Of a DNA stretch of 39,026 nt, positions 303 to 20,660 are shown in pieces. Under the pieces are notes generated by a model, which made no database searches, was not told where the DNA came from, and saw only the letters and a list, made by a program, of their open reading frames with translations. The position numbers and the translations under genes are program-made. Source of the stretch: an uncultured Pirellulaceae bacterium (lineage in GTDB: Bacteria > Planctomycetota > Planctomycetia > Pirellulales > Pirellulaceae); contig CALLUY010000042.1 in assembly GCA_938010615.1 (NCBI GenBank), positions 1-39,026 on the forward strand, written 5' to 3'. Every line of letters starts with the position of its first letter. Within the stretch, counting starts at the first letter, position 1.

Positions 303-1139
303 CTACCGTCCGCCTCGACCACCGCCAGGAGGGCCACCACGCCCACCGCCAGGAGGGCCGCCACGGCCGCCGCCTGGAGGACCTCCAGCACCTGGCTGAG
401 GCATACTCTTGGCGAATTCCGTTAACTCTTCGCGGCTAAGTTTTCCGTCGCCATCTTTGTCAAATTCGAACGCGTGTTCGATCATTCGATCCATGCCGCC
501 ACCTTGTTGTTCGCGGCCTCCACCACGACCACCTCGACCGCCGCGACCACCTTCAGCACCTCCTCGGCCGCCACCACGACGACCCTCACCACCGCGGTTG
601 CGACCGCCGCTTGAAGCAGCCGCTTTTGACGCAGCCTTCATTTCACCAAGTTCGGTTTTGTCCAAGACGTTGTCTTTGTTCTTGTCCAATCGATCGAGCA
701 CGCCTTGCATGCGAGACGGAAGTTCGTCTTTCTCGATCTTACCGTTTTCGTTTTTGTCGAAAGCCAAAAGTCGACTAGCGAAGTCGCTCGCCATCTCGCC
801 TTGATCAGCGTTTGAACCACCTCCACGTCCTGGACCGCCACCCGGAGGACCGCCACCGCGAGGACCACCCCCTGGGCCGCCGCCCGGAGGCCCCATTCGA
901 CCAACATCTTCTGTATCAAGTTTTCCGTCGCCGTTTTTGTCGAGCGCCTTCAACGCTTTTGTGGCGTTGTTAATTTCCTCGGCCGACAGTTCGTGATCCC
1001 CGTTGGGATCAAGCGCTTCCATAATTGGGTTGCCTCCCTGACCACCATGAGGAGGACCACCTTGCGGCGGCTGAGCCATCACGGCAGATGTCGAAACTGC
1101 ACAGGCAGCAATCGCAATCAACGCGTTTTTAATATTCAT
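303..1139 (-). CDS. Secreted EF-hand protein with Gly/Pro/Arg-rich linkers
   Basis: The product is 278 residues. It starts with a signal peptide (about 1-22, ending AVMAQ). It has several canonical EF-hand loops of the DxNxDG type: DPNGDHELSAEE, DKNGDGKLDTED, DKNENGKIEKDE, DKNKDNVLDKTE and DKDGDGKLSREE. These should bind calcium outside the cytoplasm. Between the hands are low-complexity Gly/Pro and Arg/Gly stretches, and the C-terminus is a tandem GGPPGGGR repeat ending at TAG 303-305. The ATG at 1139 is preceded by the purine-rich stretch AAAGAGAA. It lies 76 bp downstream of the selenoprotein candidate on the same strand and may share its transcript. EF-hand proteins of this build are common in planctomycetes. 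The target is unknown. Confidence 0.9.
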   Translation of the reverse strand: MNIKNALIAIAACAVSTSAVMAQPPQGGPPHGGQGGNPIMEALDPNGDHELSAEEINNATKALKALDKNGDGKLDTEDVGRMGPPGGGPGGGPRGGGPPGGGPGRGGGSNADQGEMASDFASRLLAFDKNENGKIEKDELPSRMQGVLDRLDKNKDNVLDKTELGEMKAASKAAASSGGRNRGGEGRRGGGRGGAEGGRGGRGGRGGGREQQGGGMDRMIEHAFEFDKDGDGKLSREELTEFAKSMPQPGAGGPPGGGRGGPPGGGRGGPPGGGRGGR

Positions 1140-1215: not shown

Positions 1216-2256
1216 TTACTTGTCACCACGCATCCGTTTCTTTGCAGCAACCGCTTCGTTATCTGTTTCGGGAATCTCGGACTCCCAATCGATGCCCAAC
1301 TGAATTCCCAACTGCACATGCCCGTTGTGATCCTTGGCCATTCGCTTGCAGTTCGCGATCGTGTCGACCAAGGCTGCTTTGAGATCTTCATGGGAAGTCT
1401 TCTCATCGAACTGAGCCAAAACTTTTCCGGACATTCCGAACTGCCCGGGCTCGACGATCAAAATCGAATTCAGCGTTTCAAGATCGCCTTCGATTCCCGT
1501 TAGCGACGAAAGCTCTTCCGCTTGGGATGCTTTCGCGTAAGTGAATTGTCCGATGATGGAATCGTCCTTCCACGCAAGCGGAATCATTTTCTGTTCGAGA
1601 ACTTTCGTTTTCTCTTCGTCGCCGGAAAAAAGTACGACCATCGGAATGATGTCCGCTGACGAAATATTCAAACCGATCTCCACGGATTCTGCATAAGGTA
1701 AATTCGTATCGCCCGTCGCTGACTCCGCGTCGACGTTGTAGGTTTTGGCAATCTTGTCCATTCCGCTGGCCATCTGCGATGCGCTGCGGTATTCGTGGAA
1801 CGGGCCTCGACCGGCTTTTGTGAGCTTCTTTTTCCCGTCGGGTGACAGAATGGCAAACGTCGTGTTTTTCATCATTCCGGTTCGGTCGAGATAAATCGAC
1901 TTCATGAAGTCTGCTTCTGCTTGGCTCTCGTAGGTCGCCAAGCGCACGCAAACGAAGTTGCGAGATGCTTCAACCACTTTTTCGTTGAACAGGAACCTCC
2001 TGTCGTTACCCTGTTTCCCCGGTCACCAAATTCCGGAGACCCCCAAACATTGCGGCGCCGCTGAGGTAAAAAGGATCGGACGGTTACTTCGCTTGGCTTC
2101 TGCAAGTCCGCCTTCAAGCGTGGCGTACCAAGCAATTCGTGGAGCATCCGCTGCCTGATTCTGGCCCGGAGCCAAGGGAGCGAAAACGAATCCCACCGCG
2201 GCGAGAATCGCACCGAACACGCCAATGCGTTTGAAACGCGTAAGTCGATTTTTCAT
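1216..2256 (-). CDS. Thioredoxin-fold selenoprotein candidate (in-frame TGA at codon 78)
   Basis: Reading from ATG 2256 to TAA 1216 gives 347 codons with one in-frame TGA at 2023-2025 (codon 78). The ATG follows AAAGGA at good spacing, and residues 1-30 form a signal peptide or anchor. Before the TGA comes a thioredoxin-like strand (RPILFTSAAPQC). The TGA context is GIW-U-PGK, with a Cys 8 residues upstream that could be a redox partner. After it the frame continues through a well-formed domain (NFVCVRLATY, then FAILSPDGKK, then GRGPFHEY) typical of thioredoxin-like proteins. The frame does not shift: all codons on both sides are in phase. A SECIS-like hairpin follows (1989-2003). Alternatives are a nonsense mutation or a base error for TGG/TGC. 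The Sec machinery genes (selA, selB, selC, selD) are not in this window. No name is assigned because I do not recognise the exact family. Confidence 0.75.
1989..2003 (-). promoter_or_regulatory. Candidate bacterial SECIS element
   Basis: On the minus strand ACAGGA-GGT-TCCTGT forms a 6-bp perfect stem (7 with a flanking G-U pair) and a GGU loop. The loop begins after 25 nt counted from the TGA at 2025-2023. Known bacterial SECIS hairpins lie just after the UGA inside the coding region and carry a G in the first two loop positions, and the E. coli fdhF loop also contains GGU. Spacing, stem and loop all agree, so this is the main support for UGA recoding. Confidence 0.7.
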
Positions 2257-2436: not shown

Positions 2437-3112
2437 GGTTAGCGTGTCGCAGACAGGCCCAGATCTTCCTTTCAAACACCGCTTTGCTTTGAGCGAAACC
2501 GACGCAACTCAGCAAGAACTCGAATCGCTTCGCAGCGGCGGGCCGCAAGCGGTCGCAGATCTGTACTCGAAATACCGACCGCAGCTTGAGCGAATGGTCG
2601 ACTTTCGCATGGACCGTCGTCTGCTAGGCCGTGTGGACGCTGGCGATATTTTGCAGGACTCATATATAGAGATTGCCAGACGCGTCGATTCGTTTCTGGA
2701 AGATCCTGCCGTTTCGTTCTTTGTGTGGGCTCGCCAGATCACGTGGCAAACCTTGATGATGTCGCATCGTTCGCACCTGGGCGTACAAAAACGTGATGCC
2801 CGCCAAGAAGTACGACTACACGGCGGAGGCTACAGTCAGGGAACTTCGGTGTCGCTCGCGTCACGCCTGATGGGCGACGTCACTTCACCCAGCCAAGGAG
2901 CCATTCGAAGCGAACAGACTCAACAACTTCGCGAGGCGCTCGATTCGATGGACAGCATCGATCGAGAAGTTTTGGCGTTGCGACATTTCGAACAGCTTTC
3001 CAACAAAGAAGTTGCCGAAGTGTTGAGCCTTGGGAAAACGGCAGCCAGCAATCGATACGTTCGAGCGTTGGAAAGACTTAAAAAGATTATGGACGAGACA
3101 TTGGGGACGTAG
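2420..3112 (+). CDS. ECF-type RNA polymerase sigma factor
   Basis: The product is 230 residues if it starts at ATG 2420. The sigma-2 region is seen around residues 40-115 (LYSKYRPQLERMVDFRMD, then VDAGDILQDSYIEIARR, then FFVWARQITWQTL). The sigma-4 region is around 165-225 (LDSMDSIDREVLALRHFE, then LSNKEVAEVLSLGKTAASN, then ALERLKKIM). This pattern matches planctomycete ECF sigma factors that sit next to large Ser/Thr kinases. The kinase gene starts 94 bp downstream, and the two are likely one signalling unit in which the kinase relays a signal to the sigma factor. That link is inferred from family and gene order. No anti-sigma gene is next to it. The TAG stop at 3110-3112 joins directly onto a family B repeat. 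The start is uncertain because a palindrome covers it. Confidence 0.9.
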   Translation: MLVLEWVSVSQTGPDLPFKHRFALSETDATQQELESLRSGGPQAVADLYSKYRPQLERMVDFRMDRRLLGRVDAGDILQDSYIEIARRVDSFLEDPAVSFFVWARQITWQTLMMSHRSHLGVQKRDARQEVRLHGGGYSQGTSVSLASRLMGDVTSPSQGAIRSEQTQQLREALDSMDSIDREVLALRHFEQLSNKEVAEVLSLGKTAASNRYVRALERLKKIMDETLGT

Positions 3113-3191
3113 GTGGCATAAGCCTCTGGCTTGTGAACTGCATGTCACAGAGGATCGAAATTCAGTCCACAGGCCAGAGGCCTATGCCACC
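3111..3191. repeat. Family B inverted repeat, copy 1
   Basis: GTGGCATAAGCCTCTGGC and about six more bases at 3113-3136 are mirrored by the arm at 3165-3191, which ends in GCCTATGCCACC. The left end overlaps the last bases of the sigma factor stop codon TAG. The right end is 16 bp before the kinase ATG, so the element fills nearly the whole gap between the two genes and would form a hairpin in a joint transcript. The same arms recur at 6057-6189 and 8549-8696. Confidence 0.85.
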
Positions 3192-8538: not shown

Positions 8539-8548
8539 CAGTTTTTTC

Positions 8549-8696
8549 GGTGGCATAAGCCTCTGGCTTGTGATTGCATACTCAAAGCTTGAAGGCCGAA
8601 CTTCTGCTCCCATTATTTGGCAGCGGAGATTGGGTCGTGATAAATTTTGCGCAGCACACCCAGACATGCAATCACAAGCCAGAGGCTTATACCACC
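8549..8696. repeat. Family B inverted repeat, copy 3
   Basis: GGTGGCATAAGCCTCTGGCT at 8549-8568 and TTGTGATTGCAT after it are mirrored by ATGCAATCACAAGCCAGAGG, then CTTATACCACC, ending at 8696. The arms enclose about 80 nt. On the minus strand the right end reads TAG-GTGGTATAAGCC, and that TAG is the stop codon of the SRAP gene. The left end is next to the padR promoter. Confidence 0.85.
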
Positions 8697-9337
8697 TAAA
8701 GCGCGGCCTTTGATATTTCAAATCCGTCCCAATCTTTCGGTTCAAGCATCGCTTTCAATTGCGACTTGTCCGTGAAATCGCAGTCGAGCCAGTACGAAAC
8801 CTGATCGTCCTCCAGCTTCACCGGCATGCGATGATGCAACTCGCTCATGAAATCGTTCGCGTCCGTTGTGATGATCGTACAAGTTTCAATTGGTTCCGCG
8901 TCCTTTGGTCCCGTCGGATCGCGCCAGCTTTCCCACAAACCGGCCATCAACCAAGGAGCCCGATCTTCTTTTGCAATTAGATACGGTTGCTTTTTCTTTT
9001 GGCCTTCGACGGGTTTCCATTCGTAGAACCCGTCGCAAACAATCACGCAGCGTTTTGATTTGACTGCGTTTCGAAAAGCAGGCTTTTCAAACACGGTTTC
9101 CGATCGGGCATTGATCATACGATTGCCGATCTTCAATTCCTTCGCCCAAAACGGAACCAGTCCCCAACGCAGCATCACCGCCTCAAGGCTTTGATCAGGT
9201 TTTCGAACCGCCAAAACATCCTGAGTCGGACAGATATTGTGTCGCGACTCTTGTTCGGGAATTTCAAGATCCTGAATCTGATCGAAGAGCGTCGCGAGCT
9301 GATGCGAGGGAGTTTGAAGCGTGAATCGTCCGCACAT
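8696..9337 (-). CDS. yedK: SOS response-associated peptidase (SRAP, YedK/HMCES family)
   Basis: The product is 213 residues. ATG 9337 is chosen over an upstream in-frame start because family members begin Met-Cys and the N-terminal Cys2 is exposed by Met removal. MCGRFTL is seen exactly. Other family motifs are RWGLVPFWAKE, NARSET, CDGFYEW and LHHRMPV. The family cross-links through Cys2 to abasic sites in single-stranded DNA and shields them during replication; the His in HHRMP and the Glu in FYEW assist. The length is normal. The gene is divergent from the small membrane protein at 9410 (72-bp gap). The stop codon lies inside the end of a family B repeat. Confidence 0.95.
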   Translation of the reverse strand: MCGRFTLQTPSHQLATLFDQIQDLEIPEQESRHNICPTQDVLAVRKPDQSLEAVMLRWGLVPFWAKELKIGNRMINARSETVFEKPAFRNAVKSKRCVIVCDGFYEWKPVEGQKKKQPYLIAKEDRAPWLMAGLWESWRDPTGPKDAEPIETCTIITTDANDFMSELHHRMPVKLEDDQVSYWLDCDFTDKSQLKAMLEPKDWDGFEISKAAL

Positions 9338-20553: not shown

Positions 20554-20660
20554 CAATACAAGCCCGACGCGCAAGCGAGGGATCGGGAAATCCCCGGAAA
20601 TATCCGCTCGCTTGCGCTTCGGGCTTGTATTCGTGCAACTTCAAAACTTACGCTTCGGGT
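20554..20660. repeat. Family A repeat, copy 4 (long hairpin with tail)
   Basis: The left arm 20554-20579 (CAATACAAGCCCGACGCGCA, then AGCGAG) pairs with 20607-20631, with one mismatch, around a 27-nt loop. It is followed by GTGCAACTTCAAAAC and a further half copy CTTACGCTTCGGGTT. Together with copy 3 it fills most of the 481 bp between the OmpH and GlmU-like genes, which hold no gene. Confidence 0.85.

Follow-up and report, generated by a model that had tools for sequence, protein, structure and literature searches.

Very probably, the minus-strand gene at positions 1216-2256 of the 39,026-nucleotide stretch of DNA analysed here (the window) encodes an exported selenoprotein with two thioredoxin-like domains; judging from sequence comparison, the UGA at codon 78 would specify selenocysteine (Sec78), to be resolved by Cys70. 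The features to which the text refers are the following.

1216..2256, minus strand: candidate selenoprotein gene, 346 aa, Sec at codon 78 (one frame with a single TGA; homologues)
2161..2256, minus strand: signal-peptide-like N-terminus, about residues 1-32 (judged by eye from the sequence)
2047..2049, minus strand: codon of Cys70, which precedes Sec by 8 residues and is proposed to resolve it (invariant in two alignments; Cys in 113/113 sites, by construction, as the site pattern demands it)
2023..2025, minus strand: UGA codon, putatively read as selenocysteine 78 (of 113 homologous sites, 110 read TGA and 3 TGT)
1988..2004, minus strand: SECIS-like hairpin, stem 2004-1998 with 1994-1988, loop GGU at 1997-1995 (folding, synonymous controls, covariation)
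1948..1950, minus strand: codon of the invariant Cys103 (Cys in 113/113 sites, not demanded by the pattern)
1732..2136, minus strand: predicted first thioredoxin-like domain, about residues 41-175 (AlphaFold secondary structure; Thioredoxin_7, 26.1 bits)
1297..1689, minus strand: predicted second domain of thioredoxin-like type, roughly residues 190-320, unmatched in Pfam (AlphaFold secondary structure; two-domain Foldseek hits)
303..1139, minus strand: EF-hand protein, 278 aa, 76 nt downstream (Pfam EF-hand_6, 63.6 bits; similar to the EF-hand stretch of homologues L038 and L146)

The reading frame and its homologues

Translated with TGA as a residue, the frame runs from the ATG at 2256 to a TAA ending at 1216, and its sole TGA is codon 78, in the context GIW-U-PGK. 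The preliminary description of this DNA had reported one frame, continuous but for the TGA at 2023-2025, with a Cys 8 residues before it, and both points hold; its gene coordinates also stand, to which we add the strand that it had left unstated. Given that the longest ordinary frame at the locus is the 253-aa part downstream of the TGA, the UGA would be expected to truncate the ordinary annotation of such genes.

The preliminary description had proposed an alignment of homologues, to see whether they carry Cys or TGA at this position. Homologous sites were found by the flanking motif C-x4-G-x-[WF]-x-P, with the codon at the Sec position left free; the constancy of the motif residues over the sites is therefore by construction. 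At the 113 distinct sites, the codon is TGA in 110 and TGT (Cys) in 3, and Cys is thus the only replacement of Sec seen. One of the two retrieval patterns has Cys at the site, so that Cys forms should have been favoured in retrieval. A motif site was held by 155 of the 162 family loci (overlapping ones counted), the other seven being a partial gene in genome G243 (2 loci) and five weak matches. Of eight pattern matches with a codon other than TGA, the Cys forms account for three; the other five were discarded as chance frames.

Within the order, 29 of 396 genomes gave a match: 22 have one in-frame TGA, G152 has a Cys codon, G243 has the later part of the gene only, with an in-frame TAG, and the remaining five, weak matches at E 1e-4 or worse, were taken as other thioredoxins. 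Across the phylum, 58 of 392 genomes matched, from which 30 fetched loci were read. Among named genome contigs, a single-sequence search found no relative, while an alignment-based search found 153, of which 80 were kept. By their MAG labels, most of these are Planctomycetota; beside them stand a group labelled Verrucomicrobiota and a few under the labels Melainabacteria, cyanobacterium, Proteobacteria or Actinomycetota.

The protein is conserved on both sides of the TGA. Two alignments, of 20 and of 44 rows, show no variation at Cys70, Gly75, residue 78, Pro79, Gly80, Cys103 and Arg105; among the 113 sites, Gly80 is replaced once, by Ala, and Cys103 is without exception. Some loci show further peculiarities. 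One Verrucomicrobiota record (L116) holds two TGA-bearing copies about 1.1 kb apart, and L031/L061 form a similar tandem pair. Eight homologues (L084, L106, L107, L125, L127, L136, L139 and L151) carry about 100 additional N-terminal residues with L[TS]xxQ-like motifs; Pfam gave no named domain on these extensions in four such homologues, and that of L151 matches NCBIfam Spy at 15.7 bits (cut-off 174).

Predicted structure and the proposed role of Cys70

The AlphaFold model, built with 44 aligned sequences, has a pLDDT of 91.3 and a pTM of 0.88. Both the model and Foldseek predict a thioredoxin fold, and the product would fold as two such domains. The Pfam model Thioredoxin_7 (PF13899) scores the window protein at 26.1 bits, against a gathering cut-off of 27, and homologue L151 at 28.0; 41 of 44 members match it at E<=0.01. 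Of the extracytoplasmic thioredoxin-fold protein put forward in the preliminary description, the fold stands by prediction, now with two domains, and export is suggested by the N-terminus.

In the model, strand 61-66 is followed by the stretch with Cys70, by Sec78 and by helix 79-89, which starts right after Sec78; Cys103 lies on strand 102-107. As modelled, Sec78 is in the place of thioredoxin's first Cys, where the first active-site helix starts, and W-U-P-G would stand where thioredoxin has W-C-G-P. The usual second Cys is absent, Lys81 being at +3 of Sec. The window protein has no CxxC, UxxC or CxxU active site; it has C-x7-U instead, with Gly at -3 and Lys at +3.

On this basis, the following course of events may be proposed. 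The ribosome would decode UGA 78 as selenocysteine with the aid of SelB, of tRNA-Sec and of the hairpin that follows after 25 nt, and the product would be exported. Sec78 would then attack a disulfide or peroxide; Cys70, to judge from its invariance and its place, would resolve the product as a Sec78-Cys70 selenenylsulfide, which a thiol donor outside the cytoplasm could recycle. The second domain probably binds substrate or partner, by analogy with the inactive domains of PDI-type proteins. The protein would accordingly be named a putative exported selenol oxidoreductase or peroxidase.

The role of Cys70 is the part of this scheme with a strong competitor. It is quite possible, if not the reading that we favour, that the protein is a selenoprotein in which Sec acts without Cys70: its partner might, for instance, be Cys103 or an external thiol, or it might form a site that binds metal or selenium. 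The full conservation of Cys103 suits this idea; that Cys70 is invariant and shortly precedes Sec in the sequence, and that Cys103 is placed on a strand in the model, tell against it, neither point being decisive.

It is far less likely that the UGA is a purposeful stop, the function lying in a product of 77 residues or in a regulated balance between short and long products, with Sec insertion as a switch. Sec insertion does compete with termination, as this idea supposes. Nevertheless, the part downstream of the UGA is no less conserved than the rest and contains the greater part of both domains, and the Cys forms have no stop there.

A SECIS-like hairpin follows the TGA

The preliminary description had placed a stem with a GGU loop 25 nt after the TGA, and this is what we see. 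The stem of 7 bp (ACAGGA/UCCUGU plus an outer G-U pair) closes the GGU loop, which starts at the 26th nucleotide after the TGA, with 25 nt between. The two strands of the window contain 1419 TGA triplets, and this is the only one of them with 7/7 pairs in that register and such a loop. Relaxed criteria (a stem of at least 6 bp with 3 G-C, and a loop that contains GG or GT and starts at about +17 to +37) let 55 of the 1419 pass. Hence, the hairpin alone is weak evidence, and we reject it as a proof of Sec by itself. Under synonymous codon choice for the same peptide, 7/7 pairs arise with P = 0.008.

Pairing is above the synonymous mean in 109 of the 110 TGA sequences; folding energy has a mean z of -3.19 against the synonymous control, with P<0.05 in 93 of the 110. 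Folding of single sites covered 28 of 29, that is, all but the first copy of L061/L031. The loop triplets are GTT in 88 sequences, GTC in 11, GGT in 7, GTG in 2, and GCT and AGT in 1 each (n=110). In a gap-free alignment of the 110 TGA sequences over 48 columns, a 9-pair stem round the three-base loop has 87.7% of its cells paired. Its covariation score is 0.361 as against 0.190 in shuffles, none of 500 of which reached it, and slid controls gave at most 0.130. Double-change cells number 75, against 15.2 in shuffles, and again 0/500 reached that value. Changes on both sides occur in seven pairs, a number that is not unusual, as 94 of the 500 shuffles also reach it. Mispairs beside the loop are found in copies of the g24 type (L033, L035, L037 and the first copy of L031) and in L103; in the three of these mispaired copies that were folded, the best-scoring hairpin lies further on.

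In the three Cys forms the hairpin has decayed: 2-3 of the 7 pairs are left. Their folding P values are 0.013 (L038), 1.0 (L146) and 0.11 (L150), so L038 folds better than its control nonetheless.

Selenocysteine machinery and the Cys-form clade

The genome to which the window belongs (4.70 Mb in 221 contigs, 84% complete) was searched for selA, selB, selC and selD, as the preliminary description had proposed, and all were found: selA at 552 bits (cut-off 267.9), selB at 349.8 (242.25), selD at 262.6 (125) and a tRNA-Sec with anticodon TCA at 65.9 (47). The selD match (L020, contig C68:22772-23689) lies within a 741-aa open frame, over twice as long as the selD profile, which suggests a fused domain.

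The same genome holds a TGA-bearing paralogue on contig C94 (L055, 2573-3490), with the TGA at the same place and Phe before Sec (VSGVF-U-PGY); in the tree it sits in a clade of 9 rows with Phe before Sec. It also holds a member of a known selenoprotein family, VPGUxxT type 2 (L188, contig C175:12827-13681, minus strand; 356.8 bits, cut-off 275), with two in-frame TGA; the second half of this protein resembles MsrA by its motif.

Among the genomes of the order, selA is over its cut-off in 19 of the 22 with the TGA gene and in 96 of the 374 others (Fisher P 1.3e-8). Within the same family, selA at E<1e-100 is present in 19 of 22 TGA genomes and in 26 of the 91 listed others (P 8.8e-7); both P values are too small, since related genomes are not independent. 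Several draft genomes have incomplete sets. In G337 (TGA), selA is not over cut-off while tRNA-Sec and selB are present; G234 (TGA) has tRNA-Sec alone, with selA and selB not over cut-off; G282 has selA and selB and no tRNA-Sec over cut-off. In the draft genome G288, which has the TGA gene, none of selA, selB and tRNA-Sec is over cut-off. In G240 and G343, both of the genus of G288, a span of about 12 kb takes in selA as well as tRNA-Sec, so that one missing contig could explain this case.

In G152, the Cys-form genome tested, no selA, selB or tRNA-Sec is over cut-off. A quick tree (LG+G4, 113 rows) places all three Cys forms on one side of one branch (SH-aLRT 99), nested in the Sec forms. The sampled tree reads as that of a Sec-containing family with one apparent switch from Sec to Cys; the machinery would have been lost in G152.

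These results also bear on the idea that the UGA is read as another amino acid, by a near-cognate or suppressor tRNA or a changed code, the hairpin serving something else. We find this still harder to credit than a purposeful stop. The presence of selenium is deduced from sequence, and G288 has the gene without detected machinery, which leaves such decoding some room; against it stand Cys as the only replacement found, the co-occurrence of the TGA gene with selA, and a hairpin with a G-bearing loop that is weakened in the Cys forms. As to a changed code, 24 long ORFs of the window, picked by length and hence putative genes, end in TAA (11), TAG (10) or TGA (3). Thus TGA also serves as a stop here, as the preliminary description had remarked, and we reject a changed code.

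Least credible of all is a decaying remnant downstream of a TGA that is either a true stop or an error of sequencing: the assembly is a metagenome-type draft in 221 contigs and broken copies exist, such as that of G243, but neither a nonsense mutation nor an error would recur at one codon in 110 distinct sequences (of 113 sites) from many families with the protein conserved on both sides, so that we reject both, in agreement with the earlier remark that a decaying gene hardly explains the intact downstream frame. Taken together, the TGA/Cys pattern, the machinery and the covarying hairpin support the selenoprotein interpretation of the preliminary description, and none of the contrary outcomes that it had named appeared.

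Genomic neighbourhood

The EF-hand protein said to stand in tandem with the gene is present as described. No universal gene partner was found among neighbours within 1200 nt: by single-linkage BLAST clusters, a sulfatase cluster occurs at 16 loci and an EF-hand cluster at 9 loci only. Pfam confirmed sulfatases at L117 and L130 and EF-hands at L056 and L113; GDPD, a response regulator, DUF3500 and a PQQ-type protein are single cases. Sulfatases are very common in these phyla, and we therefore give the sulfatase neighbours no weight.

Among the three Cys forms, L038 and L146 have an EF-hand-like N-terminus fused to them. The fused stretch resembles the EF-hand neighbour in the window (38% over 106 positions, E 2e-14; 37% over 82, E 5e-13), although the EF-hand Pfam scores of both are below cut-off. 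Gly/Pro-rich sequence makes up part of this similarity, and planctomycetes commonly have EF-hand proteins; the fusion is therefore at most a pointer towards a calcium-linked role.

The window also contains a palindromic, REP/BIME-like repeat at 136-207 (30-nt arms, 12-nt loop) and at 20554-20632. Its 28-base core has 190 copies in the genome (88 forward, 102 reverse, at most 2 mismatches), as against 0 for a reversed-pattern control; on contig C34 the copies are spaced every 36 nt. Imperfect palindromes of another set, whose arms are of the GGTGGCATAAGCCTCTGGCTTGTG type, lie at 3112-3191 and 8545-8700.

Comparison with known families

The window protein has no match among NCBIfam models at E<=1. 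When 30 members of the family were scanned singly, 21 matched NF041199 at 13.0-23.5 bits (cut-off 300), 7 matched NF041383 at 14.1-17.4 bits (cut-off 275) and 2 matched NF041382 at 13.4-14.7 bits (cut-off 350). Per NCBIfam and the literature compared, this appears to be an uncatalogued selenoprotein family. Many selenoprotein families have abundant Cys homologues, whereas the present one is nearly always Sec (110/113 sites). Discovery through Sec/Cys pairs needs Cys homologues, which here occur in one small clade only, and the family may have been missed for this reason. On balance, we lean towards an undescribed family, ancestrally and almost exclusively Sec, that is spread over Planctomycetota, occurs in Verrucomicrobiota-labelled records and combines a new C-x7-U selenenylsulfide centre with an exported protein of two thioredoxin domains. 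The route of Sec insertion would be the classical one; the protein family and the spacing of its active site are the apparent novelty. The natural switch from Sec to Cys offers a means to ask what selenium gives to an exported redox protein.

In a review of 119 families (PMC13188914), the motifs entered in Table 1 include none that matches, rows without a motif staying possible. NF041199, the Trx7/PDZ domain-containing (seleno)protein, resembles the present family in its Thioredoxin_7-type domain and in having Sec in some members, and 16 of 44 members match its profile weakly (E<=0.01); however, only about the first 65 positions are matched, with scores far under cut-off, and its motif is given as CxxU (PMC13188914), versus C-x7-U here. 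NF041383, the VPGUxxT thioredoxin-like (seleno)protein type 2, likewise has a thioredoxin-like domain with Sec and is the family with a member in the same genome; the best of 44 members reaches E 5.2e-6. Its second half, which we take to resemble MsrA, sets it apart from the present family.

Foldseek hits include PDI, ERp44, AGR2, ERp18 and DsbD-gamma. TXNDC12/ERp18, AGR2, AGR3 and DsbD-gamma are alike in the fold predicted for the first domain. In a profile search of solved structures, the WC of the TXNDC12 CxxC aligns weakly (E 0.37-0.4) with W77-Sec78; sequence E-values for AGR3 and TXNDC12 are merely 0.067-0.4. Unlike these four, the present family lacks CxxC and has the extra Cys70 and the second domain. 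PDI and ERp44 are absent among the sequence hits and have several thioredoxin domains per chain, as here (best Foldseek E 2.5e-5), but whole-chain TM-scores of about 0.2-0.3 indicate that their domains are arranged otherwise.
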